Assembly (NCBI RefSeq): GCF_947495255.1
Contig: NZ_CANLYI010000006.1
Span: 62,001 to 126,000 of the forward strand
Direction: 5' to 3'
Origin: an uncultured Winogradskyella sp.
GTDB taxonomy: Bacteria; Bacteroidota; Bacteroidia; Flavobacteriales; Flavobacteriaceae
Length of the DNA: 64,000 nt
Part shown: in pieces, positions 849 through 16,043 of the stretch
How the letters are laid out: the number at the start of each line of letters is the position of its first letter
Position numbering within the stretch: the stretch's first letter is position 1
Notes under the pieces: generated by a model
Told to the model about the DNA's origin: nothing
What the model saw: only the letters and a program-made list of their open reading frames with translations
Databases searched by the model: none
Made by a program: the position numbers and the translations under genes

Positions 849-2540
849 ATGAGTGACGATAAAAAAGTAATTTTTGCTATGTCTGGTCTTACAAAGACCT
901 TTCCTGGAGCAAACACACCTGTTTTAAAAAACATATATTTAAGTTTCTTCTATGGAGCTAAAATTGGTATTCTTGGTTTAAACGGGTCAGGTAAATCTAC
1001 CTTATTAAAGATAATTGCAGGCGTTGATAAAAATTATCAAGGTGATGTGGTTTTTCAACCAGGTTATACGGTTGGCTATTTAGAACAAGAACCACAATTA
1101 GACGATGATAAAACGGTTATGGAAATCGTTAGAGAAGGTGCTGCAGAAACAGTAGCAATTCTTGATGAATACAACAGTATTAATGATCAGTTTGGTTTAG
1201 AAGAAGTATATAGCGATGCAGATAAGATGGAAAAGCTTATGAATCGCCAAGCTGAATTACAAGATCAAATTGATGCATCAAATGCATGGGAATTAGATAC
1301 CAAGCTAGAAATCGCTATGGATGCTTTGCGTACTCCAGATGGTGATAAGAAGATAGGTGTACTTTCTGGTGGTGAGCGTCGTCGTGTTGCCTTATGTCGT
1401 TTATTACTGCAAGAACCAGATGTATTGTTATTAGATGAGCCAACTAACCATTTAGATGCAGAGTCTGTACATTGGTTAGAGCATCATTTAGCGCAATATA
1501 AAGGAACTGTAATCGCTGTAACGCACGATAGATATTTCTTAGATAATGTTGCTGGTTGGATTTTAGAACTCGATAGAGGTGAAGGTATTCCATGGAAAGG
1601 GAATTACTCATCTTGGTTAGATCAAAAATCTACACGTATGGCTCAAGAGAGCAAAGTAGCTTCTAAACGTCAGAAAACATTAGAGCGCGAGTTAGATTGG
1701 GTACGTCAAGGTGCAAAAGGAAGACAAACTAAGCAGAAGGCGCGTTTAAAAAATTACGATAAATTGATGAGTCAAGATCAAAAGCAACTTGACGAGAAGT
1801 TAGAAATCTATATTCCAAATGGTCCACGTTTAGGAACTAATGTTATTGAAGCCTCTGGTGTTGCAAAAGCTTATGACGACAAGTTGTTATATGACGATTT
1901 AAACTTTAATTTACCTCAAGCAGGAATTGTAGGTATTATTGGCCCAAATGGTGCAGGTAAAACTACCATTTTCAGAATGATAATGGGAGAGGAGAATCCT
2001 GATAAAGGAGAGTTTAAAGTGGGAGAAACAGCAAAGATTGCATACGTTGATCAAAAACACTCTAACATAGATCCAGAAAAAACAATTTGGCAAAACTTTA
2101 GTGACGAACAAGAGTTAGTTATGATGGGTGGAAAAGAAGTGAATTCTAGAGCCTATTTAAGCCGTTTTAATTTCTCTGGAGGAGAACAAAACAAAAAAGT
2201 AAAATTACTTTCTGGTGGTGAGCGTAACCGTTTACATTTAGCAATGACGTTAAAAGAAGAAGGTAATGTATTACTTTTAGATGAGCCAACTAATGATTTA
2301 GATGTTAATACATTAAGAGCTTTAGAGGAAGGTTTGGAGAACTTTGCAGGTTGTGCAGTTGTGATTAGTCACGATAGATGGTTCTTAGATAGAATCTGTA
2401 CGCATATTTTGGCTTTTGAAGGTGATTCACAAGTCTATTTCTTCGAAGGAGGATTTAGTGAATACGAAGAAAATAAAAAGAAACGTTTAGGTGGTGATTT
2501 AATGCCAAAACGAATTAAGTATAGAAAGTTAGTTAGATAA
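849..2540 (+). CDS. ettA: Energy-dependent translational throttle protein EttA
   Basis: A soluble ABC-F ATPase of 563 residues with two nucleotide-binding domains and no membrane segments. Walker A motifs are at 43-51 (GLNGSGKST) and 365-373 (GPNGAGKTT); signatures at 172-179 (LSGGERRR) and 454-461 (LSGGERNR); the first Walker B ends LLLDEPTNHLD near 193-203. The charged linker between the domains (about 245-325) is the P-site tRNA interaction motif of the family. EttA binds the ribosomal E site and gates the first elongation step according to ATP/ADP. Length matches E. coli EttA (about 555). The small membrane gene upstream and the terminator at 2563-2591 frame a two-gene unit. Confidence 0.96.
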   Translation: MSDDKKVIFAMSGLTKTFPGANTPVLKNIYLSFFYGAKIGILGLNGSGKSTLLKIIAGVDKNYQGDVVFQPGYTVGYLEQEPQLDDDKTVMEIVREGAAETVAILDEYNSINDQFGLEEVYSDADKMEKLMNRQAELQDQIDASNAWELDTKLEIAMDALRTPDGDKKIGVLSGGERRRVALCRLLLQEPDVLLLDEPTNHLDAESVHWLEHHLAQYKGTVIAVTHDRYFLDNVAGWILELDRGEGIPWKGNYSSWLDQKSTRMAQESKVASKRQKTLERELDWVRQGAKGRQTKQKARLKNYDKLMSQDQKQLDEKLEIYIPNGPRLGTNVIEASGVAKAYDDKLLYDDLNFNLPQAGIVGIIGPNGAGKTTIFRMIMGEENPDKGEFKVGETAKIAYVDQKHSNIDPEKTIWQNFSDEQELVMMGGKEVNSRAYLSRFNFSGGEQNKKVKLLSGGERNRLHLAMTLKEEGNVLLLDEPTNDLDVNTLRALEEGLENFAGCAVVISHDRWFLDRICTHILAFEGDSQVYFFEGGFSEYEENKKKRLGGDLMPKRIKYRKLVR

Positions 2541-2562
2541 TTTTATTCTAATAAAACCAATC

Positions 2563-2591
2563 AAAAAAGCCTACATATTGTAGGCTTTTTT
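2563..2591. terminator. Bidirectional terminator between ettA and the 2596-2790 gene
   Basis: A perfect 13-bp stem, AAAAAAGCCTACA (2563-2575) with TGTAGGCTTTTTT (2579-2591) around a TAT loop. The A run on one side and T run on the other let it serve both converging genes. Confidence 0.92.
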
Positions 2592-2595
2592 AGTT

Positions 2596-2790
2596 TTAGT
2601 ATATATGGTTGTTACTTGTAAAATAATTTTCTTCAATATCAAGATTTTCTAGTTCCTTATAATTCCCATTGAATTTATCAATTTCGTTCTTAATAGATGC
2701 GTCGTGTTCATGAGCATACAAATCAGATTTGCTATAGATAGTATATATTAAAAAAAGTATAAAGAATAGAATAAGAAGTGCTACTTCCAT
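2596..2790 (-). CDS. Small single-pass membrane protein, unknown
   Basis: A 64-residue protein with one N-terminal hydrophobic helix (residues about 3-20, MEVALLILFFILFLIYTIYS) and an acidic soluble tail. I do not recognise a family. It begins 9 nt after the stop of the 74-residue membrane gene on the same strand, and its own stop lies 4 nt from a bidirectional terminator, which supports a real two-gene transcript. The topology is that of a membrane-anchored peptide; no catalytic motif is visible. Confidence 0.6.
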   Translation of the reverse strand: MEVALLILFFILFLIYTIYSKSDLYAHEHDASIKNEIDKFNGNYKELENLDIEENYFTSNNHIY

Positions 2791-2799
2791 AACCTACAT

Positions 2800-3024
2800 T
2801 TAATTGTCTCCATAAAGATGACCACTTGGTGTATCTTCACCAGAGTCTTCATAATCTTTAAATGCATTAGTTTGCATTAATTTTTTGTTTTCAGCCTTTA
2901 ACTTATACATCTTTAGAATTGCAACAATAATAAGTACTAAAAACACCGTAGCTACTGAAATTAAAATCATGGTAAGTTGCGTAGTAGTCACAATCAGAGC
3001 CTTAGAGAGTAGATTTTTAAGCAT
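2800..3024 (-). CDS. Small membrane protein with coiled tail, unknown
   Basis: A 74-residue protein with a hydrophobic helix at about 19-40 followed by a basic, heptad-like stretch (LKMYKLKAENKKL) and an acidic C-terminus. An in-frame Met at residue 19 would give a 56-residue form starting directly with the membrane helix; both starts are possible. It is first in a two-gene minus-strand unit. A TATCTTAG element (3064 to 3057, minus strand) 32 nt upstream resembles a Bacteroidota -7 box. No known function. Confidence 0.6.
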   Translation of the reverse strand: MLKNLLSKALIVTTTQLTMILISVATVFLVLIIVAILKMYKLKAENKKLMQTNAFKDYEDSGEDTPSGHLYGDN

Positions 3025-3433
3025 ATCTTTTGGTATAGAATTGGGGTTCTAAAATGCTAAGATAGAAAAAATCTAATTCTTAATTCTTTAATTTTAAATT
3101 AATTACGTTTAATAATTGTAAAAATCACCGATTAAGAGTTTGTTAAATCCGTTAAACAACAGTGTTTTATAGCGAAGTACGACTTTTGTTGATTAGATAA
3201 AACTTTAAATTTTAACATTTAATAATTATATAGTGAAGTCATATCTTTTTAATTCTATTCATTTTTTAGGTTATCAAATGTTATTTAGTACAATTCGTAA
3301 AATAATTTCAGCATAAATTGTAACATTTTTATAATTAGATCTACCTATATTTTAGTAAGTAAAGTTTTTATAGTCTTAAAAAATTACCGAAATTGTTAAC
3401 CTTAAACTGTTCAACTTAATAATACGATACAAT
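3025..3433. other. AT-rich divergent intergenic region
   Basis: 409 nt between divergent genes without a credible ORF or structured RNA. It holds a minus-strand -7-like TATCTTAG at 3057-3064 and a plus-strand TATATTTT at 3346-3353 that could serve the long operon starting at 3434. Neither has a well-spaced TTG, so both are tentative. Confidence 0.5.
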
Positions 3434-4780
3434 ATGTCTGATGATTTTGATTTATTAGAAACAAATTCCAACGAAAAAACAGCGAAAGTCGATGTAAATT
3501 GGGGAAAAGCCATAGACCAAATGAAGTCTAAATTGGCACAGGAAGATGATCCTGAAAGTCGTCAGAAAATATTAAATGCAACATTAGATAATGTTGTTGA
3601 TATGGCGGAAAAAGATAGAACCACTTTATTAGATGCTATTAAAGACTTAACGGATTACCAAGATGAAGTTGGGATTATGTTCGAAGGTTTTTCAGCCTTA
3701 AATGCTTCAGAACAAAAAATCATTGATGATTCAATAAAACGTTTAGAGCGCGCAAAAGTTGAGTTAGAAGATGCAAATGCAAAGCCAGATACATTTTGGA
3801 ACAATCTTTTCGGTAGAAAAGGAAAAATAAAAACCGCAGAACAAGAGCTTAAAGAAGCTCAAAAAGTGCGTGATGCTGCAGATAATAAAGCAAAAGCGAT
3901 GTTTCAGCAACGTATTGAAACTGCAGATGTACAAACCTTATTAAATGAATTGTCATTTAAGAGTCAAGCAGCAGTAAAACGTTTAAAAGACAGAGAGATT
4001 GAAATTAAAGAAGTAGAAGAAAGTCTTAAAACAGCTATTGTAGAAGCATCTAACAATCATACAAAAGCACTTCAGAAGAAAAAAGAAGTAGAGGATAAGC
4101 TCGAAACTGAATATGCTTTATTAAAACAAGCACGTCAAGCTTTAGAAGAAGTTGCCGATAAACAATCAGAAGAATACTCTAAGGCTCTAGGTGCTGTAAC
4201 AACATTAGAGCAAAAAGTAGAAGAATTAGAAGGACTTAAAAATGCGTATACTACGCTAGCCGCTTCAAAAGATAGTTTTGTTCACAAACATAATCTTACT
4301 ATTAAAGTTTTAACGTCGTTACGTAGCAACTTACAAACGCATCGTGCAAAATTAAAGTCAGATACAGACGAGCGTCTTAAATATTACGATGGTTACGTTG
4401 TGGCTTTAAAAGCACGTACAGATCAAGAGTTTGCAGCCATTTTAGAACATTTAGGAGTTAAAACAGATGAGCATATTGGTGAAACTTTAGCATCAATGCA
4501 TACAGCAAGTGCTAAAGCACGTCAAGAAATGATGGACAACATTCCTGTTCACGAAAAAGTAATGCAAGGTGTTTACGGAAGTTATGCTGAAGCTTTACAA
4601 GAAATTAGAGAAAAGGATAAGTCTATTCAAAAGAATTTCGCAGATCGTTACGGAATTGATATGAAAGAAATTTTTGAAGATTATTACGCAGCAGATGCAA
4701 ATGCACCATCTGGTGATGGAGGAGGAGAGCCAGCAGGCGAACCAAAGCCAGAAGCTGGTGATGATGACCTTTTAGGATAA
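3434..4780 (+). CDS. Large coiled-coil protein, first gene of an unknown conserved cluster
   Basis: A 448-residue, highly charged, soluble protein without signal peptide or membrane segment. Residues about 90-310 are mostly heptad-like helix rich in K, E, Q and A; the helical region is interrupted near 122-135 by a W-containing loop (FWNNLFGRKG). The C-terminal 30 residues are a flexible Gly/Pro/Glu/Asp tail. I recall close relatives throughout Flavobacteriaceae under loose labels such as microtubule-binding protein, which I do not trust. It opens a same-strand run that includes an AAA+ ATPase and several membrane proteins, so a scaffold or filament role in that system is plausible. It vaguely resembles TelA-type helical proteins but has no diagnostic motif. 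Confidence 0.7.
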   Translation: MSDDFDLLETNSNEKTAKVDVNWGKAIDQMKSKLAQEDDPESRQKILNATLDNVVDMAEKDRTTLLDAIKDLTDYQDEVGIMFEGFSALNASEQKIIDDSIKRLERAKVELEDANAKPDTFWNNLFGRKGKIKTAEQELKEAQKVRDAADNKAKAMFQQRIETADVQTLLNELSFKSQAAVKRLKDREIEIKEVEESLKTAIVEASNNHTKALQKKKEVEDKLETEYALLKQARQALEEVADKQSEEYSKALGAVTTLEQKVEELEGLKNAYTTLAASKDSFVHKHNLTIKVLTSLRSNLQTHRAKLKSDTDERLKYYDGYVVALKARTDQEFAAILEHLGVKTDEHIGETLASMHTASAKARQEMMDNIPVHEKVMQGVYGSYAEALQEIREKDKSIQKNFADRYGIDMKEIFEDYYAADANAPSGDGGGEPAGEPKPEAGDDDLLG

Positions 4781-4790
4781 TTTAATGATG

Positions 4791-4888
4791 GCGTTACCTA
4801 CTTTTGTTTTAAGGACAAAAGTAGGTCAGGCTTTCCACTATATCTTTTTTTAGAAAAAGAAAAAAGGATGCCGTTTCAATCCTTAACG
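4791..4888. repeat. Interspersed flavobacterial intergenic repeat with two hairpins
   Basis: A compact element bounded by short inverted ends (CGTTA at 4792-4796, TAACG at 4884-4888). It contains a perfect 12-bp hairpin, ACCTACTTTTGT (4796-4807) with ACAAAAGTAGGT (4815-4826), then a second A/T-rich hairpin from ATCTTTTTTT near 4845 to AAAAAAGGAT near 4869, and ends with a TGCC...ATCCTTAACG block. I recall elements of this layout repeated between genes in many Flavobacteriaceae genomes. No second copy is in this window. It could terminate or attenuate transcription after 4780. Confidence 0.65.
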
Positions 4889-4940
4889 TAAAAAAAAACA
4901 ATTTTTACTTATTTTCATTTAGTTATAGCTAAGTGTTTCA

Positions 4941-5510
4941 ATGGAAGACTTTTTAAGAACAATAAAATTAATTGATACTTTCTCTACTACTTTGAATGTG
5001 TCTAGGTCCAAGTTTACTTCAGCTTTGCGTAATAATGTTGATGAAGCAGATATTGATGGATTGCTTTCTGGTGCATTTGAAGCATTTTCCTCAAGCGATA
5101 ATATATTTACAGGTTCTGTTAATCAGAATGGCTTTAAGATAAGAAAAAGAAAACGTGCTTTTGAAAGTACTTTTATAAAAGCAACGGCAGAAGGTAAGCT
5201 TATTGAAAAAGGAGGTGCATTGGAAATTGATGTCCAAATTAATACTTCTAATAACCATATGATTTTGTTTTTTGGAGTTTTGACGATATTCTTTTTTATG
5301 GCTTTTAGTTTGTTAATAATTCGAGCTTTTTTTTTAGATAATGAATTTTCAACAATAATAAAAATAGTCCCAATTGTAGGTATTTTTATTCTCGCCCTAT
5401 TTATGTTTGGAATTCCGTATTTAATTATGAAAAATGGCGTACAACATATAAAACAAGATTTAGAAAGAGAATTTCATTTTATCATAAGTAAATCTAATAC
5501 TCTAAAATGA
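4941..5510 (+). CDS. Membrane protein with N-terminal soluble domain, unknown
   Basis: 189 residues: a soluble region of about 100 residues with a basic patch (KIRKRKRAFE near 67-76), then two membrane helices (about 104-128 and 140-163) and a short cytoplasmic tail. There is no signal peptide. The stop overlaps the next start by 4 nt (ATGA), indicating translational coupling with the 348-residue gene. The soluble part, which alternates charged and beta-type stretches, could be a membrane-associated sensor domain, but I do not recognise a family. It belongs to the 3434-15578 cluster. Confidence 0.65.
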   Translation: MEDFLRTIKLIDTFSTTLNVSRSKFTSALRNNVDEADIDGLLSGAFEAFSSSDNIFTGSVNQNGFKIRKRKRAFESTFIKATAEGKLIEKGGALEIDVQINTSNNHMILFFGVLTIFFFMAFSLLIIRAFFLDNEFSTIIKIVPIVGIFILALFMFGIPYLIMKNGVQHIKQDLEREFHFIISKSNTLK

Positions 5511-6553
5511 TAGTTACACCATTAGATTCCGCAATATTAGATTCCAAAGAACAATATGTGTTTTATCACAAAATGATAGATTTCACATTAAAGGAACTTA
5601 TATATGCTGTTCAAGAAAAACAAATTTTAAACCAACAAGAAGTCTTGCTGTTTAAGCAATACAGTGATTTGCTATTATATTCAATCGAGGCAATGCGTGT
5701 AAAATACATGTATGACGACGAGGAAAATATGAAAGTTGATTTAACCGATTCTGGTTTTCCAAACTATTTAGAATTTAGATATTTATTTAACGATTTAGAA
5801 TTACGTGAAGAATACCTAGGAAAACTTACCAATACAGATGTCCTAAAAGAAGAATTTTTAGACACATTAATGCGAAAAAAAGAGCCTATCCCTAAACGTA
5901 AACTCTTTCAAGCAGCTTCAATTGTTTATTATACATCAGCTAAAAAAGAATATATTTTCAATCGTTTTGTACAAGGTAAAATATTACCAGCACCAGAAGG
6001 CTCTGAAGAAGAATACTTAGTTAGTTGGAGTTTCTATGATGTGTCTCATAACAGACCATACATTTGTTACATGTATTTTGATTATGATGGTAAAAATGTA
6101 GAAGATTATAAAGATGAAATTTATTCTATCCTTAAAAATGCAGCTGATCGCGATATGAATTTAGATACCATGGCTTACGCTATAGATAAACGATTACCAA
6201 AAGTATTTCCAAAACGTATAAGACGAGTAGACTTAGGACCTTTACATAATGTTTTTGCAAAGGACGAGAATAAAGTAACACATACCATATTACAAAGTAT
6301 CGCAAACAAAGAGATTCCTTTAGAGTCTTATGCAATTTCTTTTAAAATAGATGAATTGAAATCTGGTAGTGAATTTAAAGAAGGTAGCTTTTTTAGTAAA
6401 CAAACGTTTCAACGTTGGGATGCTATTTTTAGACAACGTTACGTTTTTGCACCACATAGAATTATTCAATTACTATATAATAAAACACCAGAGATTATGA
6501 ATAAATTGGCTTTGGCGCCAATTCAAATCTCTGAATTAAAAATGGATAAATAA
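5507..6553 (+). CDS. Soluble protein of the AAA+ cluster, unknown
   Basis: 348 residues, no signal peptide and no membrane helices. The sequence is mixed alpha/beta and rich in aromatic residues (for example VSWSFYDVSHNRPYICYMYF near 172-191). I do not recognise a family or catalytic motif. It is coupled to the upstream membrane gene by a 4-nt ATGA overlap and precedes the AAA+ ATPase by 94 nt, so it is probably an adaptor or partner of one of them. Codon use and AT content look like its neighbours, with no sign of recent transfer. Confidence 0.65.
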   Translation: MIVTPLDSAILDSKEQYVFYHKMIDFTLKELIYAVQEKQILNQQEVLLFKQYSDLLLYSIEAMRVKYMYDDEENMKVDLTDSGFPNYLEFRYLFNDLELREEYLGKLTNTDVLKEEFLDTLMRKKEPIPKRKLFQAASIVYYTSAKKEYIFNRFVQGKILPAPEGSEEEYLVSWSFYDVSHNRPYICYMYFDYDGKNVEDYKDEIYSILKNAADRDMNLDTMAYAIDKRLPKVFPKRIRRVDLGPLHNVFAKDENKVTHTILQSIANKEIPLESYAISFKIDELKSGSEFKEGSFFSKQTFQRWDAIFRQRYVFAPHRIIQLLYNKTPEIMNKLALAPIQISELKMDK

Positions 6554-6562
6554 TGGTTTAGT

Positions 6563-6640
6563 AGACTGTATACTAAAGACTAAATTAACGCAACAATAAG
6601 TCCGATAGCGTAAAAACTGAAGACTGCATACTGAAGACAA
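6563..6640 (+). repeat. Imperfect direct repeat in intergenic spacer
   Basis: Two copies of a roughly 18-nt unit, AGACTGTATACTAAAGAC (from 6563) and AGACTGCATACTGAAGAC (from 6621), lie 40 nt apart between the 348-residue gene and the AAA+ gene. They differ at two positions. Similar units occur as short tandem runs between genes in other flavobacteria, in my recollection; the function is unknown. Confidence 0.6.
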
Positions 6641-6647
6641 AAAATAA

Positions 6648-8609
6648 ATGGAACACAACTCAACTTTCCCTATAAAACAAAATGAACTAGATATGCTTCG
6701 AGATGAAGCAACTACATATTTAAAATCTATTCAATGGGAGCAAAGTCAACGCGCAAAAAACAAAGATAACGACGCAAAAGATGAATCTATCTTATTGTAT
6801 TTATCTCGAGCAAATAACGGAAGCAACGTTAATGTAACTTCAGTTTCAAAAACTATTTTGGCTTTAAAGAAACGTTTGTTGCCAGAATCTGTAGCACTTC
6901 CTATTTATTTAAATCAGACGTTGTTTGCTGTTCAAGAAGGATTAACACTTGGTATTTGGATTAAAGATAGCTTTTACGATGCGTCAGGTTTGTCTACGTT
7001 AAGCGAAAATAAATCGGCATTAGATAGTTCTGGTAGGCGTGAGTACGAAAGTAAAATGCACACATCAACGGCATTTATGTTGTTTTCTGCAGCTTATAAA
7101 ATTCTTCATGATTTAAAACCACATGCTTCTGATGATTTATCTGTGATGAAGCAGAAGTTTGCAGGTATTCCGGAAGTGTCTTTACTGACACCTTTAAAGG
7201 GAATTTCTTGTCAATTATTTTATTATGATAAGTATTTAGGTCATCCTGATATTATAAAATCCGATAAAGATGTTATCGATTTTACGGTAGTTTATTTTGA
7301 AGCTTTAATAGATGAAATTCAACTTAGAAAAAGTAGTTTAGAATACACAGAAACTATTGTTGATAGAACTTACAAACTCGAAAATTCAGAGTTTGCCATT
7401 TCTGGTTGGGATAATGCTTTCTCTGGTACAGCAAAAAGTATTGAATTTAACAAAATTCAGTTTGAACAAATTGTAGGAAACAGAGATGCCAAGCATTTTG
7501 CACGTCGTTTAACGGAACGTTTACTAAGTTATGATATAGAAGCTAAGAAAAACCCATTCCAAGAACTAGGAGGATTTATGCCTGTTTTTATGGGTTACGG
7601 AATTCCTGGAACAGGTAAAAGTATGTTGATTGCAGCTATTGCAACACGGTTAAAAGAACATTCAGATAATTTAGATATTCCGTTTTTATTCCACCCAATG
7701 CCAGATACGTTGATTAGTACATTTCAAGGTGGTTCTGCAGAAAAAATGGTAGAGTGGATGAAGCCTTTGCAAGATCCAACAAAATTAATTTTTGCACCAA
7801 TTGATGATGCAGAAAATAATTTACAAGAACGAACAGCTCAAGGTGTTTCTGCAGGTGTAAAAGAAGTGATTGGTGTATTTTTAAGATATACAGAAGGTGC
7901 TTATGCTGTAAATTACGGTAACAGTTCTATTGGCTTATTTACCAATTTACCAGAAATGTTGGATAAGGCTGTAATTTCTAGAGTACAAGGAAGATTTAAA
8001 ATTGATGGAGCGCGCACTGAGCACGATTTTGTTGATCAAGATTACATTTGGTGGAAGAAGTTACAAGACACAATGCCTGATTTTGTGAACATGAATGATC
8101 CTGAGGTATATAAATATTTATCGGATCAAGGATTGGCCAACAGTATGGGAGAAATTCTTAATGCTATAGAAAAACCTTCTGAAGCAAGAGTTCATGATAC
8201 GTTTGATAAAGTTGAAAAACTGCATCAGAATACTGACCACATGTTTTATGCAGCTTTATATAAAGAGATTCAGAAAATATTTCCGTTTTTCTCTTCAAGA
8301 GATGTTAGAAACATTCAATCTGCAATTTCATTACGACTTACGGATTTTGATTTAGAACAAGACTGGTTTGAAAACCCTGAAACCTATTTTAAAAAGGATT
8401 ACGAAACTAAATTCAACATGCTTCAAGAATTAATGAAGTCTAATATGAAAGGTTTAAATTTTTCAGATATTAGAAGACAAGAAGTAATTAGATATTTAGA
8501 TAACGTAGCAACCATTGCAGATACAGATTTTAAACGTAAAGTAGATGCTAGAGTAAATCAAATGAATATTGATACTAAGGCTCGCGAGCAGTTTGGGAAT
8601 AAAAATTAA
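6648..8609 (+). CDS. AAA+ ATPase of an unknown conserved cluster
   Basis: 653 residues with a classical AAA domain in the middle. Walker A is at 318-325 (GIPGTGKS). A STFQGGSAEKM segment at 357-367 occupies the pore-loop position. Walker B is the unusual LIFAPIDDAEN (380-390), with DD where DE is usual. Sensor 1 and the arginine region follow as LFTNLPEMLDKAVISRVQGRF. The N-terminal 300 residues are a cluster-specific helical domain without a known match. Such ATPases remodel or unfold a partner; the likely partners are the coiled-coil and membrane proteins encoded around it. The next gene starts 2 nt after its stop. The AAA assignment is firm, the role unknown. Confidence 0.85.
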   Translation: MEHNSTFPIKQNELDMLRDEATTYLKSIQWEQSQRAKNKDNDAKDESILLYLSRANNGSNVNVTSVSKTILALKKRLLPESVALPIYLNQTLFAVQEGLTLGIWIKDSFYDASGLSTLSENKSALDSSGRREYESKMHTSTAFMLFSAAYKILHDLKPHASDDLSVMKQKFAGIPEVSLLTPLKGISCQLFYYDKYLGHPDIIKSDKDVIDFTVVYFEALIDEIQLRKSSLEYTETIVDRTYKLENSEFAISGWDNAFSGTAKSIEFNKIQFEQIVGNRDAKHFARRLTERLLSYDIEAKKNPFQELGGFMPVFMGYGIPGTGKSMLIAAIATRLKEHSDNLDIPFLFHPMPDTLISTFQGGSAEKMVEWMKPLQDPTKLIFAPIDDAENNLQERTAQGVSAGVKEVIGVFLRYTEGAYAVNYGNSSIGLFTNLPEMLDKAVISRVQGRFKIDGARTEHDFVDQDYIWWKKLQDTMPDFVNMNDPEVYKYLSDQGLANSMGEILNAIEKPSEARVHDTFDKVEKLHQNTDHMFYAALYKEIQKIFPFFSSRDVRNIQSAISLRLTDFDLEQDWFENPETYFKKDYETKFNMLQELMKSNMKGLNFSDIRRQEVIRYLDNVATIADTDFKRKVDARVNQMNIDTKAREQFGNKN

Positions 8610-8611
8610 TA

Positions 8612-9940
8612 ATGGAAGACGACGTAAATAATGAAGTAAAGTTAGATAATTCGTCTAACAAACCTGTTAATAGTTGGTTACAGAGACTAAAGGATGAAAG
8701 CTGGGAAGCTGAGTTATTGGTGTCTGCAATAGCTATTTTTGGTACATTTCAATTATTTGATGTTGTAGAATGGGCAACAAATAAGTTTATTAATGTATTA
8801 AACCCTAGTCAATATTTAGTGGGTTATGCAATTGTTTTTCTTGGGCTATTTGCCATTAGCATTTTGGCATCCATGTTTGTAATTCATTTTATTCTTCGTG
8901 CGTATTGGATTGGGTTGGTGGGTTTAAATTCTGTTTTTCCAGATTATAGTATAGAAGACAGTGCTTATTCAAAAATATATACTGAGAAAATTCTGTCTAT
9001 TCTTCCAAAATTAGAAGATTCCATAAAAAAGGTAGATGCATTATGTAGTGTTATTTTTTCTGCAGCATTTACGTTTTTATCAATGTATTTATATATGGCA
9101 CTTTTTGCTTATGTGTATTTAATGATTTTTAATTTGTTGTCTAGTTATGTACCAACTTTAATTCTTTTAATTCCATTAGGTTTATTTATCGTAGCGATGT
9201 TATCTCAAATGGTAATTGGTATAGTTGCTAATTTGAAAAAAAATAAGGAAAAAGAAAACCTTCAGCTTTTATATTTCAAAGCTGTTAAATATGGTTCACT
9301 TATAATGATAGGACCTTTGTATAGGTCTATTCTTCAGATTACAATGATATTTGGTTCAAATTTTAAAAAGAATAAATCTCTAGCTTTTTTAATGATGTCT
9401 TTTTTAATTGTTGGGATGCCTTTGGCTGTTATTCAAATGAATAAAACTAACATTCCTTACTTAATTAAAAACGGACTTTCTGTTGAGTCAGATGCATTAA
9501 AAGTTAATCCTAATTATTACCAGTCTGAAAATTCTAATAGCACGTTTCTCTTAGCACCACAAATAGAATCAGATATAATAAAGTCTGAAGTAGTTAAAAT
9601 ATTTATACCCATTTTTGATAATGAAAAGAAAATGAGTGAGGAAACGTGTGATGCTTATATCGAAGATACCAACAAATCTAGGGTTGAACAGCGAAAGGAG
9701 CGTAGGTTGAATGCTCTAAACTGTTATCAGAAATACAATACGGTTTATTTAGATGATGGAAAAAAAGAGATTGACTTTTTAAAATATACGCACCCAATAA
9801 CTAAACAATTTGGTATTATTGGCTATATGCCATTAAGCAATCAAAAGTTAGGAATGCATACTATAACTGTTAAGAAAGAATTTAGCCAAGATAATATAAG
9901 CACTTGGTCAATTCCATTTTATTATACACAAAACAATTAG
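8612..9940 (+). CDS. Polytopic membrane protein of the AAA+ cluster
   Basis: 442 residues with a short acidic N-terminus, then roughly six hydrophobic helices: about 30-50, 66-93, 144-172, 176-205 (possibly two) and 262-282. A soluble C-terminal domain of about 150 residues follows, containing clustered lysines and two cysteines, and probably lies outside the inner membrane. Its ATG is 2 nt after the AAA+ gene stop, so the pair are translationally linked. No transporter signature is visible. An integral membrane target or anchor of the ATPase is the simplest reading, an inference from context only. Confidence 0.7.
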   Translation: MEDDVNNEVKLDNSSNKPVNSWLQRLKDESWEAELLVSAIAIFGTFQLFDVVEWATNKFINVLNPSQYLVGYAIVFLGLFAISILASMFVIHFILRAYWIGLVGLNSVFPDYSIEDSAYSKIYTEKILSILPKLEDSIKKVDALCSVIFSAAFTFLSMYLYMALFAYVYLMIFNLLSSYVPTLILLIPLGLFIVAMLSQMVIGIVANLKKNKEKENLQLLYFKAVKYGSLIMIGPLYRSILQITMIFGSNFKKNKSLAFLMMSFLIVGMPLAVIQMNKTNIPYLIKNGLSVESDALKVNPNYYQSENSNSTFLLAPQIESDIIKSEVVKIFIPIFDNEKKMSEETCDAYIEDTNKSRVEQRKERRLNALNCYQKYNTVYLDDGKKEIDFLKYTHPITKQFGIIGYMPLSNQKLGMHTITVKKEFSQDNISTWSIPFYYTQNN

Positions 9941-9963
9941 ATCTATCTAAAGGATAAATCATT

Positions 9964-10551
9964 ATGAATAGTAATCTAAAAAGCATAAAAAAAACGACCC
10001 TCTCAAAAGAATGGGCAACATTAGATAGAATTGATTATGAATATCAATTTAAGAATGGTGATTGGAAATCTGTCTCTAGAGAATGTTATAATAGAGGTAA
10101 TGGTGCAGCAATATTGTTGTACAATGCAAAAAAAGGCACTGTAATATTAACAAAACAATTCAGAATGCCAATTTATGAGAATACTAAAAGTGAAGCAATG
10201 TCCATTGAGGCTTGTGCTGGTGCTATTGATAATAATGATAACCCTTTAGAAACTATTATAAGAGAAACAGAAGAAGAAGTTGGTTACAAAATAAGTAATG
10301 CCAAACAAGTACTTACAGCATACACATCACCAGGAGCTTTAACTGAAAAAATGTATTTATTTGTTGCGGAATATAGTGATGCAATGCAAGTTAATGATGG
10401 AGGAGGATTAGAAAGTGAAAATGAAGAAATTGAAGTTTTAGAGCTTACGTTTTCTAAAGCTATAGAAATGATAAAAACAGAAGAGATTATTGATGCTAAA
10501 ACGATTATGTTGTTGCAATATGCTCAAATCAATAATTTGATTGAATTATAA
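9964..10551 (+). CDS. nudK: NudK-type Nudix hydrolase (GDP-mannose pyrophosphatase family)
   Basis: 195 residues closely following E. coli NudK along the whole length: the YNRGNGAAILLYN segment near 42-54, the Nudix box with RETEEEVGY at about 100-108, the SPGALTEK loop, and the EEIEVLEL and AIEMIKTEEIIDAKT stretches at the end. NudK hydrolyses GDP-mannose and other nucleoside diphosphate sugars to NMP and sugar phosphate, using Mg2+ held by the Nudix glutamates. Here it is embedded in the AAA+ cluster and its TAA shares one base with the next ATG. That placement suggests the cluster handles or responds to a nucleotide-like compound. The family is certain; the in vivo substrate is not. Confidence 0.9.
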   Translation: MNSNLKSIKKTTLSKEWATLDRIDYEYQFKNGDWKSVSRECYNRGNGAAILLYNAKKGTVILTKQFRMPIYENTKSEAMSIEACAGAIDNNDNPLETIIRETEEEVGYKISNAKQVLTAYTSPGALTEKMYLFVAEYSDAMQVNDGGGLESENEEIEVLELTFSKAIEMIKTEEIIDAKTIMLLQYAQINNLIEL

Positions 10552-11786
10552 TGAATAAACTAAAACAAGCCAACTTATACAGAAGCGAACTTATTTCTAT
10601 CAGTGGAAAACTAGTTGAGCGTTACAACAAATGCTTAAAAACGCTTGGTTTTACAGAAACAAAACTAACATCATTTTATATTGATGGCATTGGTTGGAGC
10701 CCTGAGGTTGCGGAAGAAATGGAAAATATGCATTACCTAAATCATGGTGATGCTAATCCAAATGGTATAATCATATCACCTTTACAAAAGGGAAAACCTG
10801 TGTATTTGCCTTTTCATTCTTTTGATAAAGAAATGATGCAACATGTCTTTAGAACGCATGGTCAAAAAATTAATGATATCACAAGAGATTCTGCCATTTG
10901 CATAGATTTTGACCAGAATATTGATGTGTTTTATGAGCCATTAGACGTTTTAAAATATGATAGTATCAATATTAAATTCAGGCTTATTGATAATCTAGAA
11001 CAGGTTCAGAAAGATCAATTAAAATTAGTTGATAAGTTTAAAACTGATAATAACTTTATAGACGAAGCAATACATCAGCAATTACTAGATTCGGCTAAAA
11101 CTTATGGCGACTTACGAGAAAGAGATTTAAGCTTACATCCTTTACATTTTTCAACAGACTCGTTTTACACTAGGGCTTTTGGTGGTGTTTACTTGCTAAG
11201 AGATTTTATAAAACTTATTATTGTTTTTGAAGATGTGGAAGCTTATAAAGAAGCGATTAAAGATACCATACACGATGTTTTAATTTACCACATCGCACAA
11301 CCAGAGCTAGTTGAGAAACTAAAGGATCACATTATTATTGAGTGCGATTTAGAATATATTGTAAAAACACCAAATTACGAACGTATTAAGAAATATGTAC
11401 TTGCTCAATTTTTAAAAGATACAGCGCATCCTATTAAAGACATATTAAATGATAGTGTGTTGTTTAAAAGTTATTTGAATAAAATTGATATCAAGGAAAG
11501 AAAGCAAGTAATGAGTGTTGAGTTATATCTCGAAAAACTTGAGCGTAGCAATGCATATAAGATTGAAGATATAGTTGATCAATCGTTCTATTTTGCTTTG
11601 CATCAGCCACATTCGTCCTTGTCTTCTAATCATCGTGATTTAATTCATAAATTACTTATTAATATTGCTCCAAAGGATGTTTTATTCTTGTATTGGTATG
11701 ATAAAGAGCAGTTTTATAAAAATTATGAAACTTGGGATGATTCATTTAAAGATTGGGTAATTGAAAGAATCCGTAACAATATATAA
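10551..11786 (+). CDS. Uncharacterised soluble protein (possibly DUF6638)
   Basis: 411 residues, no signal peptide or membrane helix. The N-terminal half has a conserved-looking stretch (SFYIDGIGWSPEVAEE near 40-56) and a region with PLQKGKPVYLPFHSFD. The C-terminal half is helical. I have a partial memory of this sequence type as DUF6638, but cannot confirm it. It starts on the last base of the nudK stop, so its synthesis is coupled to the Nudix enzyme and the two may act together. No active-site motif is evident. Confidence 0.65.
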   Translation: MNKLKQANLYRSELISISGKLVERYNKCLKTLGFTETKLTSFYIDGIGWSPEVAEEMENMHYLNHGDANPNGIIISPLQKGKPVYLPFHSFDKEMMQHVFRTHGQKINDITRDSAICIDFDQNIDVFYEPLDVLKYDSINIKFRLIDNLEQVQKDQLKLVDKFKTDNNFIDEAIHQQLLDSAKTYGDLRERDLSLHPLHFSTDSFYTRAFGGVYLLRDFIKLIIVFEDVEAYKEAIKDTIHDVLIYHIAQPELVEKLKDHIIIECDLEYIVKTPNYERIKKYVLAQFLKDTAHPIKDILNDSVLFKSYLNKIDIKERKQVMSVELYLEKLERSNAYKIEDIVDQSFYFALHQPHSSLSSNHRDLIHKLLINIAPKDVLFLYWYDKEQFYKNYETWDDSFKDWVIERIRNNI

Positions 11787-11827
11787 TAATTTTAGACTAA
11801 CTTTATAAGAACCTTAAACCAAAACTG

Positions 11828-12367
11828 ATGTCACTAGAAATAATAGCATTTATAGCCTCAATTCTATTCGGAATTGTATTGTACTGGCGAGAATCTAAAA
11901 GCAATAAAGTATATCGCTTTTTCAACAAAATACTCTATTCTAAGGAATTACAAATGCCGCCAAATAGTAAAAAAGGATTTTTATACCAGCAATCTTTTTT
12001 AATGCGATTGGTATATGTAGCTGTACTTTTTCTAGCAGGTATCCTTATTGCAAGATTTTTAATTCCGATTGATTTAATGACAATTTCTTTATTTGCATCA
12101 AGCATGTTTGGGACATTATTAGGTACATATTTAGCTAACTTTGTGTTTAAATCTTCTGAAGTAATAGATGAAAAAGGTGATTCATTAATGGATGCTGTAA
12201 AAGAAACAGTAGAAAAAGGTAAAGATTTCATTCAAGAGTTAGAATCAAAAGATAAAAAGGGTGATGCTGAGACTTCGCGCGGAGTCGAGGAGTCTCAATC
12301 GGAAGCAAAACCCGAAGTTAACAAAACAAGTGCACGTGACCGATTGAAAGATAAGGGTCTTATGTAA
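11828..12367 (+). CDS. Membrane protein with charged C-terminal tail, unknown
   Basis: 179 residues: hydrophobic helices at about 3-20, 61-79 and 84-108, then a long, highly charged cytoplasmic tail (about 115-179) rich in K, E, D and S that looks disordered or coiled. It starts 41 nt after the preceding gene. The layout is typical of membrane anchors or tethers. I see no enzymatic motif and recognise no family; it belongs to the 3434-15578 cluster by position and strand. Confidence 0.65.
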   Translation: MSLEIIAFIASILFGIVLYWRESKSNKVYRFFNKILYSKELQMPPNSKKGFLYQQSFLMRLVYVAVLFLAGILIARFLIPIDLMTISLFASSMFGTLLGTYLANFVFKSSEVIDEKGDSLMDAVKETVEKGKDFIQELESKDKKGDAETSRGVEESQSEAKPEVNKTSARDRLKDKGLM

Positions 12368-12462
12368 TATAAAATGTGGTCTTAAATTAGTTTTAAGACG
12401 ATATTAATTAAAGAAATAAGTTTAAGGTTCTGATTTAAATTCAGAATTACAAAAAATACGAA

Positions 12463-14160
12463 ATGATTAAAAAATACTGGAATAAAGGAGGAAAACAGAA
12501 AGCAATCACAATTTTTGTGGTTTTACTATTGTTAGTGTTATTGTTCTTTTTTAGAGACGATTATCAACCTGTTTTGTTATTTATACGTAAATACATTTTC
12601 ATAATTATTATCAGTTTATTGGTTTTAATTTTGGGATTAAGAAAATTCAGAAAATCTGAAAGCGTAGGTGGTCGCTTAGGCATGTTAGCCTTGCTAATTA
12701 TCTTTTTCGGAATATTATATGGTGTAGGTTGGCATTTAAAAATGTATGACTACATGAAAACTTATAATGTTTTCAACAGTTTAAACAAAGTTGAAATTAA
12801 CGAATTGCCACTAACACAAAACGAACGTATTCAACCACTTAGAAATGTCTTTTCTATGGCCAATGAAAGTGTTGGTGAAACAAAAGATGTATCCTTACCT
12901 CATTTAGTAAGAATAGGTACTGAGAATAAATGGACAATGGCAATACAGCCAAGTGAAAAGTACGTCATGCAGCAAATGAGCGATAATACTGAAGAGGTAT
13001 TTGCCGTGAGTAGTACAACACCGTTTCCTAGATTTTCTAATGAAAACCGTATTCCTGTTACATTTTCAATTGGAGAATCTTTAAAATTTAGTCGAAACAC
13101 ATACAATGCTGTTGTGCAACGTTTTAATCCTTGGATGCTTTTAAATTACGAACCAAGTGATACGTTTTACATGAAAAATGATGATGGCAAATGGGTAGAA
13201 GTTGTGAGTTTAATAAAATGGAAAGGCTTCTTTTTTCCTTATCCTTCTTTTGGAGGTGTTATGATTATTGATAGTGGTGAACACGATATGAATGATTATT
13301 TAGAACGTATCACTATTGGTAAAGGCACTTTTGTGAGTCCTGATGAAATTAAAAATTATCCGTTTTTAATGAAGCAAAACACGTTATCAGAAAAAGTATC
13401 CCAACTTGAAGCAGAATCTTTAAAATTTTTAGGTGGATTTAGCGATCCTTTACCTTGGAATATGGAAACAGCGGTTAAGATTCCGATGATGCCAAAAGAC
13501 CAAAATCAACAACCTTATGTTACCGATTTTGATTTTGTAGGTTCAAATTCTGATGCATACAGTGGATTGTATCATTGGTTTGGATTAGAACCAGTAGGTA
13601 ATGAGCGTACAAGTTTAAGTTATAGCGTATTTATTCCTGCTGACGGTACAGACAAATTATATTATTATGACCATGCTACTAAAAAACAAGGTTACGCAGG
13701 TGTTTCTGCTATGCCATTAAAGGTGAAAGAATCGCGTAAAGAATACGATTGGAGTGCAAGCACACCTGTTGAGTTTAGACCTTATATAAAAGAAATTGCG
13801 GGCAGAAAACGTATGTTTTTCTTAGGTACAATATCTTCTATTAGTTCTACTGACGCACAACAGTTTGATGGTTCTGCAACGCCAGATTTGGTTTTAATAG
13901 ATAGTGAATATAGAGATGTAATTTGGATAGATGTTAAACATCCTAGTACCTGGGATGAGGAAGTATATAATCAACTTAATGAAGCTTGGAGAGCGAGTGA
14001 AGGTATTGGTTATTACTATAAAGAAGTGCCAAAAGATGAAGACATAATGGAGCAACAAATGGATTCTTTAATGAGTATTCCTAAAATTGATGATAATACG
14101 GATACAATTGATAAGTTACAACGTCAGATAGATTCTTTGAAGGCTGCTAAAGGTTTATAA
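12463..14160 (+). CDS. Membrane protein with large extracytoplasmic domain, unknown
   Basis: 565 residues. Three hydrophobic helices lie in the first 100 residues (about 14-30, 40-57 and 71-89), followed by a domain of about 400 residues rich in beta-type and aromatic stretches, and a C-terminal coiled-coil-like tail (SMDSLMSIPKI to the end). The central domain is probably exposed in the periplasm. There is no recognisable family. It closes the tightly packed part of the cluster: a palindromic hairpin sits 24 nt after its stop. A ligand-sensing or complex-anchoring role is possible but unsupported. Confidence 0.65.
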   Translation: MIKKYWNKGGKQKAITIFVVLLLLVLLFFFRDDYQPVLLFIRKYIFIIIISLLVLILGLRKFRKSESVGGRLGMLALLIIFFGILYGVGWHLKMYDYMKTYNVFNSLNKVEINELPLTQNERIQPLRNVFSMANESVGETKDVSLPHLVRIGTENKWTMAIQPSEKYVMQQMSDNTEEVFAVSSTTPFPRFSNENRIPVTFSIGESLKFSRNTYNAVVQRFNPWMLLNYEPSDTFYMKNDDGKWVEVVSLIKWKGFFFPYPSFGGVMIIDSGEHDMNDYLERITIGKGTFVSPDEIKNYPFLMKQNTLSEKVSQLEAESLKFLGGFSDPLPWNMETAVKIPMMPKDQNQQPYVTDFDFVGSNSDAYSGLYHWFGLEPVGNERTSLSYSVFIPADGTDKLYYYDHATKKQGYAGVSAMPLKVKESRKEYDWSASTPVEFRPYIKEIAGRKRMFFLGTISSISSTDAQQFDGSATPDLVLIDSEYRDVIWIDVKHPSTWDEEVYNQLNEAWRASEGIGYYYKEVPKDEDIMEQQMDSLMSIPKIDDNTDTIDKLQRQIDSLKAAKGL

Positions 14161-14183
14161 TTTACGATTCATTTTAAAAATAT

Positions 14184-14221
14184 AAAGACCTGTCAGGATT
14201 TTAAAATCCTGACAGGTCTTT
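14184..14221. repeat. Perfect 38-nt palindrome, terminator-like repeat
   Basis: Two 19-nt arms, AAAGACCTGTCAGGATTTT and its exact complement, meet without a loop at 14202/14203. The T-rich end is very short, so it is not a standard intrinsic terminator. The core CCTGTCAGG / CCTGACAGG recalls a short palindromic sequence I associate with Bacteroidota intergenic regions. It may act as a bidirectional terminator or a REP-like element. Confidence 0.75.
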
Positions 14222-14356
14222 GATGTTAAGAGTATTTCAAAACCATGAATTATGGTTAACGAATCTATTTGATTTATCATTCTTAACATGCTTCGAAATC
14301 AACAAAACATGTAACAAATTCTCAGAATTATAGACTTATATTATAAAGAAGATATT

Positions 14357-14833
14357 ATGGGTTTCATGGGTTTTGGCATGCAAAAATGGATTTATACGAT
14401 GCGCCCACGTAAGCCATTTTCTATGCAGAGGAAAGGCTCATTCACTGCAGTGCCATCAAAAAGTAGAAAATTTAAACTACAACCATCAGAAAATAAAGGA
14501 AGTTGTAATTTAGCAATAGTTTTATTAATCATTTTCTCTTTATTGATAGGTTTAATGATTCCAAAATGGTCGGCTTATGAAAATAAGAGAATTAATGCAG
14601 AAATAGAATTTAGAGAATCTAGAAATAATACAGCATTTAATTTTTTAATTAAGTCGGGAAAAAATAGATTGAGTTCTGGAAAAATACACGGAGCATATTC
14701 TGAGTTTACCTTAGCTTTAAATTTAAAACCAAATAACAGGGAATTGAATAGTTTGTTATTAGAAACTTTAGAAATTCTTTGTTTTGATTATAACACGCAT
14801 TGCGATGAATTAGAGGAGTTAGATTTTAATTAG
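14357..14833 (+). CDS. Small membrane-anchored protein with TPR-like tail, unknown
   Basis: 158 residues: an odd basic, Met/Phe/Arg-rich N-terminus, one membrane helix at about 51-68, then a helical tail in which HGAYSEFTLALNLKPNNREL (about 114-133) resembles one tetratricopeptide repeat. No signal peptide. Several in-frame Met codons near the start (residues 4, 8 and 15) leave the exact start open. It lies 31 nt before the next gene and 196 nt after the previous one, so it may begin a separate transcript within the cluster. Confidence 0.55.
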   Translation: MGFMGFGMQKWIYTMRPRKPFSMQRKGSFTAVPSKSRKFKLQPSENKGSCNLAIVLLIIFSLLIGLMIPKWSAYENKRINAEIEFRESRNNTAFNFLIKSGKNRLSSGKIHGAYSEFTLALNLKPNNRELNSLLLETLEILCFDYNTHCDELEELDFN

Positions 14834-14864
14834 TTAAAAATATAATAATCATAAAAGTATAAAT

Positions 14865-15578
14865 TTGAGTTTCTACGAAAGAAAACGTTTAAAAGAAGAA
14901 AAGCTAAACATTGATTTTGAATCCGTGCATTGCCAAGACATCGGATTGTACGTTATTGGTAAATACCCAAGATTGCAGTTTGGTGGTTTAAATTTTTCAG
15001 ATAGCTTAGATTGGAGTCATAATGCTAAAGCAACTATTAGATTAACCATTTTAAACTTAATTAATAATGGTGTTATTGAAGTTGTTAAAGTTTTAGATTC
15101 TAAAACTTATTTTTTTAAATTATTTAAAGGTTATTATACCAACTATTACTTTAAAATTACAGATTTACAAATAGATGAAGATTGGTTTTCAGTTTTAGTT
15201 TATAAATCAATAAATGAAGTAAATCAATCTGGTAGTCCTGATTTGACATTGTATATGGATAAAATAATTGAAAAATTGTTATATAAATATAACAGCTATA
15301 GTCATCCACCCAGTGCTTTTATAAAACAAATTCTAAGGACATATGCTAAGAAGTTTAAATGGATTGAATTGGTTAAAACTAAAAAGTTACTGGGATTAAT
15401 TGATGATTTTAATCTAAAAGTTGAAGACATCTATATTCCACGAATAAGCATGCAACATAAATCTCTTACAGATATTGAGAACAATTTGTTACGCCAAAAC
15501 AAGGATTACAAAGTTTTTTATAGAGCATTAAATAACAAAATAGATTATAGCTTTAGAAAAAGAAATAATGATGATTAA
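14865..15578 (+). CDS. Uncharacterised soluble protein, TTG start
   Basis: 237 residues from a TTG codon; no ATG gives a comparable product. It is soluble and aromatic-rich, with a winged-helix-like stretch possible near 50-90 (AKATIRLTILNLINNGVIEVV). I recognise no family. It is the last plus-strand gene of the run that began at 3434, and its TAA abuts the stop of the convergent acetyltransferase gene with no spacer, which leaves no room for an independent terminator. Confidence 0.6.
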   Translation: MSFYERKRLKEEKLNIDFESVHCQDIGLYVIGKYPRLQFGGLNFSDSLDWSHNAKATIRLTILNLINNGVIEVVKVLDSKTYFFKLFKGYYTNYYFKITDLQIDEDWFSVLVYKSINEVNQSGSPDLTLYMDKIIEKLLYKYNSYSHPPSAFIKQILRTYAKKFKWIELVKTKKLLGLIDDFNLKVEDIYIPRISMQHKSLTDIENNLLRQNKDYKVFYRALNNKIDYSFRKRNNDD

Positions 15579-16043
15579 TTAAAGTTCTAACAACATCTTT
15601 ATATCAGAACGCAAATAAGGTGAATCTTTTTCTAGTTGTAATTCTACAAATCCATATTTTCGATATAAATAAATAGCATTTTCTAATTTTCTGTTAGAAT
15701 AGAGTAGTAGTGTATTAAGATTTTGAGATTTACCAAAATCAATGCAATGTTGTAATAATTGTTGTCCTATTTTCTGCCCACGTTCCTCTGGTAAAACAGC
15801 CATTTTGGTTAATTCTAAAACACCATATTTTTCGGTAGGCATCAATGCTACAGTTCCAACGACATTATCTTCTTTAACAGCGAAGAATATAAAACCACCT
15901 TTATTAATAATGTATTTATCTGGTTGACTTAAAACGTCTTCGTCATAAGGTTCTACGTAAAAATACGTTTTTAACCACTCAATATTTAAATCATAGAAAT
16001 CTTGTGTGTATTGTGGTTTAAAATCAATTATTTTAATTACCAT
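15579..16043 (-). CDS. GNAT family N-acetyltransferase
   Basis: 154 residues with a GNAT fold. The acetyl-CoA binding motif A is visible as TKMAVLPEERGQKIGQQLL (about 88-106), with R/Q-x-x-G-x-A/G represented by RGQKIG, and motif B follows as LYRKYGF. Such enzymes move acetyl from acetyl-CoA to an amine; the substrate cannot be read from the sequence. The start overlaps the end of the formimidoylglutamase gene by 11 nt, so the two are one transcript and the substrate may be amino-acid related. Confidence 0.85.
   Translation of the reverse strand: MVIKIIDFKPQYTQDFYDLNIEWLKTYFYVEPYDEDVLSQPDKYIINKGGFIFFAVKEDNVVGTVALMPTEKYGVLELTKMAVLPEERGQKIGQQLLQHCIDFGKSQNLNTLLLYSNRKLENAIYLYRKYGFVELQLEKDSPYLRSDIKMLLEL

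Follow-up and report, generated by a model that had tools for sequence, protein, structure and literature searches.

What is encoded by the run of eleven open reading frames (ORFs), here designated A to K, that lies at 3434–15578 in a 64-kb stretch of DNA from an uncultured Winogradskyella sp. (contig NZ_CANLYI010000006.1; the whole 64,000 nucleotides are referred to as the window), and do all eleven belong together? A sequence-only reading had taken them for a single eleven-gene cluster encoding a membrane-attached remodelling machine, and had proposed a check of gene neighbourhood and co-occurrence. This check was run and the genes are indeed kept together, though as a smaller set. A cytosolic core of four genes, A, C, D and G, appears from sequence comparison to be common to the Flavobacteriaceae, the Pseudomonadota and a contig that looks like a jumbo phage, with membrane partners that seem to be lineage-specific, and the explanation towards which we lean, without being quite persuaded of it, is an ATP-driven machine that remodels a membrane-proximal helical scaffold by means of a threading AAA+ motor. 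The features of the region are as follows (aa, amino acids; TM, transmembrane segment).

2562–2592, both strands: terminator-like hairpin (consensus match) between the upstream EttA-type ABC-F gene and A
3434–4780, + strand: A, 448-aa all-helical coiled-coil protein, putative scaffold; core
4941–5510, + strand: B, 189-aa membrane protein by hydropathy; accessory, rare
5507–6553, + strand: C, 348-aa soluble protein; core
6648–8609, + strand: D, 653-aa classical-type AAA+ ATPase (predicted); core
8612–9940, + strand: E, 442-aa membrane protein by hydropathy; accessory, rare
9964–10551, + strand: F, Nudix hydrolase of the YffH/AdpP (NudK-like) subfamily; frequent, optional
10551–11786, + strand: G, 411-aa DUF6638 protein; core
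11828–12367, + strand: H, 179-aa membrane protein, hydrophobic segments near the N terminus and a charged tail at the C terminus; flavobacterial core
12463–14160, + strand: I, 565-aa membrane protein with three N-terminal hydrophobic segments and a large domain; flavobacterial core
14184–14221, no strand: perfect palindrome of 38 bp immediately 3' of I
14357–14833, + strand: J, 158-aa single-TM protein; probably not in the unit
14865–15578, + strand: K, 237-aa ORF with a TTG start; probably not in the unit

The ORF list and domain scans bore out most of what had been said of the individual genes. All eleven are on the + strand, with a 4-nt overlap of B and C (5507–5510), a 2-nt gap between D and E (8609/8612) and a 1-nt overlap of F and G (10551); A has the 448 residues given for the coiled-coil protein, D matches PF00004 (AAA; Pfam, E 9e-9), and the count of five membrane proteins holds by hydropathy, hydrophobic segments being present in B, E, H, I and J and none reaching the threshold (hydropathy 1.6 over a 19-residue stretch) in A, C, D or G. 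F, which had been called a NudK hydrolase, is a Nudix protein (PF00293, E 3e-11) and passes the TIGR00052 subfamily cut-off of NCBIfam (158.5 vs 79.55 bits), but it falls below the equivalog for the GDP-mannose pyrophosphatase NudK, NF011585 (189.4 vs 234 bits needed). The Nudix and AAA+ folds had been thought the only recognisable ones, and both were found; G, however, also matches PF20343/DUF6638 (E 5e-33, 115 bits vs a gathering cut-off of 27).

The loci compared were the best 80 of 308 matches in named records, i.e. the nearest, together with 19 divergent loci from a family-wide sample; one of 3.4 kb (L068) was under the length filter and was dropped, leaving 98. In 92 of these flavobacterial loci the order A-C-D-G-H-I is intact, four of the six exceptions are contig ends (L048, L053, L054 and L191), and there are two true breaks (L175 and L176, in genomes G436 and G564). 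In G436 the core is scattered, with A-C-D at ~1.83 Mb, G-H at 2.58 Mb and I at 2.68 Mb, while in G564 A is on a separate contig and C was not found in the stretch that was read, the rest of that genome not having been searched for C; the members searched for are retained in both genomes although dispersed. The order is thus conserved far above chance, and the flavobacterial core consists of the six genes A, C, D, G, H and I. Presence is equally concerted. Among 249 Flavobacteriaceae genomes, A was found in 76 (E <= 1e-40) and D in the same 76 (E < 1e-100, rows counted by hand and generic AAA matches at E ~1e-7 to 1e-3 excluded; the match in G492 is partial), G in 75 (E 1e-15, the single miss being G492, which is 73% complete) and I in 77 (E 1e-20, missing from G492). 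Though relatives had been expected throughout the Flavobacteriaceae, and many genomes do have them, the counts for A and D make 'throughout' too strong. D was found in 33 of 36 searched relatives of the same genus, and of 296 genomes sampled across the phylum, four were found to have full-length D and four DUF6638, all of them Flavobacteriaceae. In many loci the cluster keeps its position beside EttA. Measured against the window protein over 28 to 97 loci, A and D have median identities of 85.5% and 86.1%, C and G of 73.5% and 71.0%, and I and H of 78.3% and 53.9%, compared with 94.5% for EttA, 64.7% for HutG and 77.6% for HutI. The slow evolution of the A and D sequences fits a housekeeping role. 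Together with the all-or-none presence in the sampled genomes it suggests a function on which the carriers depend.

The remaining genes are less constant. B is present in 5 of 96 A-C gaps, E in 5 of 97 D-G gaps and the NudK-like F in 59 of 97 D-G gaps; relatives of J were found in 22 of 97 loci and of K in 8 of 97, which are lower bounds as some loci end early. The eleven-gene extent was therefore too wide, B and E being rare, J and K sporadic, and a palindrome lying directly after I, and the unit probably consists of genes A to I, with J and K outside it. Other small genes also occur in the gaps, namely one that sits between C and D or between G and H at 25 loci (e.g. L078:10901-11257), encoding what we take to be a four-helix-bundle protein of the 23S rRNA intervening-sequence type, and an ORF in the G-H gap of six loci that is presumably GIY-YIG-like.

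Beyond the Bacteroidota, a tblastn search of plasmids with D retrieved 10 records (Vibrio 4, Rhizobiaceae 6) with 26.6–28.7% identity over 78–88% of the protein. Seven loci were read, from Vibrio vulnificus, Vibrio parahaemolyticus, Sinorhizobium meliloti, Sinorhizobium sp. K101, Shinella, Rhizobium leguminosarum and one virus contig, and A-C-D-G are in this order in all seven; the two Vibrio loci are near-identical, as are the two Sinorhizobium loci, so these amount to about five independent views. When profiles of the flavobacterial and the other members, built with no shared sequences, were compared, the probabilities were 96.6% for A (E 6e-10), 99.6% for C (E 6e-24), 100% for D (E 5e-60) and 100% for G (E 3e-39), and the Pfam score for DUF6638 is 199 bits in Vibrio and 256 bits in Sinorhizobium. 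The membrane genes differ. A DUF2333-type gene adjoins the core in four of the seven loci. In three of the four loci from Rhizobiaceae, those of S. meliloti, K101 and Shinella, it follows G, and in the virus contig it lies upstream of A, the DUF2333-like protein there having 22.7% identity (E 2e-7); S. meliloti and K101 also have extra sequence between D and G. DUF2333 was tried and rejected as a homologue of H or I.

A jumbo-phage identity of the virus contig (IMGVR_UViG_3300035698_035310, 359 kb) is suggested by genes for a virion structural protein (E 3e-33), an ATP-dependent protease of phage type (E 4e-248) and an RNA ligase (E 3e-130), with an endolysin-like gene and weak spanin matches as further markers. 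About 73 kb away from the module lies a TelA gene (E 4e-98), which is followed (L173, 48000-67999) by genes for an NMT1-like substrate-binding protein, an OmpA-like protein, a VWA lipoprotein, an NMT1-OmpA fusion, a permease and an ABC ATPase. This TelA gene set resembles the bacterial OmpA-PBPB/ABC operons linked to PspA/Snf7.

Of the core proteins, D is the most readily interpreted. K324, D386, D387, R445 and R449 do not vary among 103 D sequences. N433 is kept in 102, the remaining one having X, and the aromatic residue of the pore loop, which is F in 99 sequences and Y in four, always precedes Q-G; we take K324 to belong to Walker A, D386/D387 to Walker B, N433 to be sensor 1 and R445/R449 the arginine fingers. 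The second Walker B acid is Asp (Asp-Asp), not Glu. Sequence matches to solved structures in the PDB are weak, the nearest being VCP (E 1e-4), Vps4 (E 2e-3 or higher) and AAA chains of the proteasome. The conserved residues are those that an active AAA ATPase of the threading kind would show, and D is accordingly predicted from its sequence to be an active ATPase of the classical type.

Structures were predicted for A and G. The model of A (predicted local distance difference test, pLDDT, 64; predicted template modelling score, pTM, 0.42) is all-helical with a long hairpin formed by residues 166–238 and 246–327. Foldseek with this model returned nothing at E <= 0.001, and a profile search of the PDB with A nothing below E 0.08. 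The top solved shapes in VIA-align are ClyA-type bundles, with Z 11–13 and a root-mean-square deviation (rmsd) of 4.5–7 for a low-confidence model, namely AhlC (Z 12.9, rmsd 5.5, 226 aligned), MakA (Z 12.8, rmsd 5.9, 265 aligned) and ClyA (Z 12.3, rmsd 4.6, 211 aligned); F-BAR domains are also among the top-ranked shapes and are not significant, and ESCRT-III chains were not among the matches listed, which does not speak against such a fold. Two sequence features of A stand out. A Trp-rich loop at ~120–130 is conserved, the three proteins from beyond the Bacteroidota having a shorter hydrophobic segment at the corresponding position, and a conserved acidic C-terminal tail has its pattern in 85 of 97 flavobacterial sequences; our guesses are that the loop might touch the membrane and that the tail might serve as a handle.

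For G the model is confident (pLDDT 88.8, pTM 0.81), the N-terminal half being alpha/beta and the C-terminal part helical. Foldseek found nothing significant for it in the PDB (best E 1.6) or BFVD (best E 0.24), and a second look with VIA gave at most Z 4.6 over 40 residues; on the model, G is a possible new fold. C has no Pfam match and no PDB match, and profile searches returned no solved relative of C or G up to E 10. The large domain of I would, from its charge and hydropathy, face the periplasm.

The history of the locus bears on which genes belong together. Compared with Winogradskyella eximia (L031), every 500-nt bin of the window from 3501 to 11500 is 99.2–100% identical in DNA sequence, whereas bins outside 3501–12000 are 73–92% identical. 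The edges of the near-identical stretch lie close to the start of A (within 3001–3500) and to the end of G (within 11501–12000; G ends at 11786), such that B, E and F are inside the block and H and I outside it. Three other Winogradskyella loci show no such block, with 81–86% identity in large segments. We read this as a recent homologous exchange in which A to G moved as one block between two species. Mis-assembly in either genome is a conceivable alternative source, though it would have to respect gene boundaries. If the exchange is real, variants move between species and the cytosolic genes are handed on together.

Co-divergence was measured over 60 loci that have all six core genes and EttA, as correlations of pairwise distances with all other genes held constant. 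The highest partial values are 0.57 for A-C and 0.36 for D-G, each exceeding 300 of 300 permutations (run for A-C, D-G and A-D), and 0.49 for G-I, 0.29 for A-I and 0.46 for D-EttA. G and I are separated by H, which itself correlates weakly. This pattern suggests an A-C subcomplex and a path from D through G and I towards the membrane.

ATP-driven remodelling of a membrane-proximal scaffold best explains the combination of a motor and a helical scaffold with two soluble partners and a lineage-dependent membrane partner, and the membrane-attached remodelling machine of the sequence-only reading therefore survives as the best reading, reduced from eleven genes to the A-C-D-G core with lineage-specific membrane partners. 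It rests on gene order, co-occurrence, the AAA motifs of D, the helix prediction for A, the hydrophobic segments of H and I, the wider core and co-divergence. From these we infer the assembly of D into a ring, the physical interactions, A as the substrate of D, contact of A with the membrane and a purpose in envelope maintenance. In such a machine D would be a ring-shaped threading ATPase of the classical AAA+ type, and its substrate would be A, a long helical-hairpin scaffold held in an A-C complex, which would cluster or polymerise on the inner face of the cytoplasmic membrane. G would be the adaptor linking the motor to the membrane side, where H and I, or the DUF2333-type protein in rhizobia and the phage, would be anchors reporting on the periplasm. 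The cycle would start with assembly of A-C at strained or damaged membrane, D with G would then extract or recycle A-C, and the membrane or its complexes would be stabilised as a result. The best reading by analogy is that the module works like ESCRT-III/Vps4 or the PspA/Snf7-AAA operons, of which it is not a member by the tests made.

Several results weigh against this reading. A lacks a transmembrane segment, no 19-residue stretch reaching hydropathy 1.6, and in the window protein at least four stretches are more hydrophobic than the Trp-rich loop. Confidence in the model of A is low, and its VIA-align matches fall in the range, below ~13, that is flagged as not distinctive for helical bundles. 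Kinship with known scaffolds was not found either, as A has no PF04012 (PspA) match in Pfam and hhalign gave <= 0.3% against five PspA proteins (Snf7 was not compared by profile), and it has no PF05816 (TelA) match up to E 1 and hhalign gave 0.1–0.3% against five TelA proteins; the alignments were small and shallow (effective number of sequences 2 to 3), such that weak kinship could escape, and TelA against PspA gave nothing either. A was thus rejected as a TelA or PspA. The A-D pair, which the model would place in contact, has a partial co-divergence of 0.07, matched or exceeded in 48 of 300 permutations, and hence gives no specific signal that could serve as proof of contact; A-C and D-G are near neighbours, and shared recombination or linkage may explain part of their signal. 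On the membrane side, H and I show no profile resemblance to DUF2333, and the Vibrio loci have no adjoining DUF2333 gene and an upstream neighbour without a hydrophobic segment, so that membrane coupling may not be universal. Finally, I is present without A, D and G in two genomes, G498 (L215), which retains EttA-NudK-I, and G501 (L216), which retains H-I; these sets are possibly remnants of a lost module, or reflect independent use.

The last two points also feed the strongest rival, a soluble quality-control or assembly chaperone in which D acts on a cytosolic enzyme complex, unfolding or activating it, with A, C and G as its adaptors or clients and the flavobacterial membrane genes as no more than neighbours. 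It owes its standing to the Vibrio four-gene core without adjoining DUF2333 and to the exchanged block, which ends after G and before H and I. It would also accommodate the lack of hydrophobic segments at threshold in A, C, D and G, the classical AAA motifs of D, and the ability of H and I to persist without the core. However, flavobacterial H and I are nearly as tightly tied to the core as the core genes are to one another, I co-diverges with G, and a membrane gene of the unrelated DUF2333 type adjoins the core in four of the seven other loci. We consider the chaperone unlikely, while regarding it as a serious contender.

A module for superinfection exclusion or anti-phage defence, used by a jumbo phage against competitors too, would explain why the phage contig has the whole core and a DUF2333-type gene and, separately, TelA, which the available text of a comparative-genomics study proposes as a jumbo-phage weapon against superinfecting phages (PMC7824862), and recent exchange of A to G between two Winogradskyella would suit it as well. 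Against this, the PADLOC matches in the ten genes scanned (all but J) are weak, namely IetA for D (E 6e-6), a JetC coiled coil for A (2e-4) and PDC-S07 for F (1e-4). A and D are strongly conserved and the cluster stays beside EttA in many loci. Moreover, a single phage contig was found; scans of viral contigs, part of which were sensitive to close relatives only, returned no other module-bearing contig, and 50,697 phage records contained no full-length D relative and no G relative. Defence is improbable on this evidence. Likeness to IetAS is confined to the AAA domain of D (residues 317–497 in the PADLOC match), as D scores 14.7 vs 510 bits for NF042959 and none of the ten genes matches IetS.

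An envelope structural or cytoskeletal system for polarity, shape or gliding, with A as a filament and D as its disassembly motor, would account for a helical A with a conserved acidic C-terminal tail, an AAA motor and membrane partners. But the module is absent from ~70% of the family sample and present on a phage contig, and a general shape system would not need a phage copy; it is more improbable still.

Least probable of all is a Ter/TelA-type stress pathway in which other subunits would sense a nucleotide-like signal that the Nudix enzyme makes or destroys. Such a pathway could cite the NudK-like F in many D-G gaps and the TelA with its OmpA/substrate-binding/ABC operon on the phage contig, but F is optional, no TerB, TerC, TerD or TelA match was obtained with Pfam up to E 1 among A to J (K was scanned with NCBIfam and PADLOC), A has no TelA profile similarity, and no TelA was found in the genome of the window (G000). 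The response to a nucleotide-like molecule that had been suggested for the cluster is likewise not supported as a core property; BLAST searches of loci from Vibrio, S. meliloti, Shinella and the phage found no relative of F, and with the Nudix enzyme optional a nucleotide signal is unlikely to be the centre of the mechanism.

Scaffold remodelling thus being preferred, the module can be set beside the systems it recalls. As in ESCRT-III/Vps4, a helical scaffold protein is paired with an AAA ATPase of the classical type, and D has the AAA motifs, whereas A has no Snf7 match and D no MIT match in Pfam, and no counterpart was found for the conserved C and G. Bacterial PspA/Snf7 and AAA+ operons, some with ABC and OmpA-PBPB genes, for which ATP-dependent membrane remodelling is proposed, likewise combine a coiled-coil protein, an AAA+ protein and membrane or periplasmic partners, but the available text of that report mentions no DUF6638 or DUF2333 partner (PMC11237479); no PspA was found in G000. 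The Ter/TelA style that had been noted for the cluster, without its diagnostic genes, remains an analogy. It consists of a sub-membrane protein with membrane proteins, as in the Ter/TelA stress system (PMC7824862), and of co-carriage with TelA on one jumbo-phage contig, whereas no Ter family was found among A to J; the TelA on the contig is a true one. ClyA-family proteins (AhlB/C, MakA, ClyA, XaxAB) provide the top-ranked shapes for the model of A, which differs in having no significant Foldseek E-value, in being encoded with a cytosolic AAA motor and in lacking a hydrophobic tongue at the 19-residue threshold, below which a shorter tongue could escape. The operons of PMC2875224, considered as a match, are in the available text FtsZ-like operons with a different set of genes. 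As had been expected, the module matched none of the described systems tested, and no description of it, DUF6638 included, was found in the literature searched, whose coverage leaves out most subscription journals.

If the preferred reading is true, a further bacterial pairing of helical scaffold and AAA motor stands beside the PspA/Snf7-AAA operons, with two conserved subunits of no described function. The hypothetical families DUF6638, A, C, H and I are brought together as one testable complex, and the module on the jumbo-phage contig makes phage control of the envelope testable. The broader proposition, that A-C-D-G represent an unrecognised bacterial class of scaffold remodellers unrelated to ESCRT-III, PspA or TelA, with DUF6638 as a new fold and with envelope control exerted by chromosomes, megaplasmids and jumbo phages, is possible but doubtful.

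As to the edges of the unit, the hairpin at 2562–2592 is a possible upstream boundary and the palindrome at 14184–14221 a possible downstream one; seven terminator-like sites were found vs 3.9 expected, so single sites are weak proof. No promoter of the Bacteroidetes type (TTTG and TAnnTTTG) was found in 2501–15800, which is uninformative with 0.45 expected, and sigma-70-like sites are no more frequent than chance. A divergent 74-aa ORF with a long hydrophobic stretch is located at 2800–3024 on the − strand, in the region upstream of A.

Other neighbours were seen outside the Bacteroidota. A 147-aa protein near the phage module (L171:8071-8511) matches phrog_6791 (E 7e-54), a family with no function assigned, and resembles SmpB. 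On the Vibrio plasmids, which are ~0.9 Mb in size, the module is followed directly by a gene with the annotation mfd (transcription-repair coupling factor; L118:15130-18591 and L212:11283-14744). In Pseudomonas fluorescens MFE01 a DUF2333 gene lies beside NUDIX hydrolase and amidase genes (PMC5256989, available text), and DUF2333 and Nudix genes recur near the module too.

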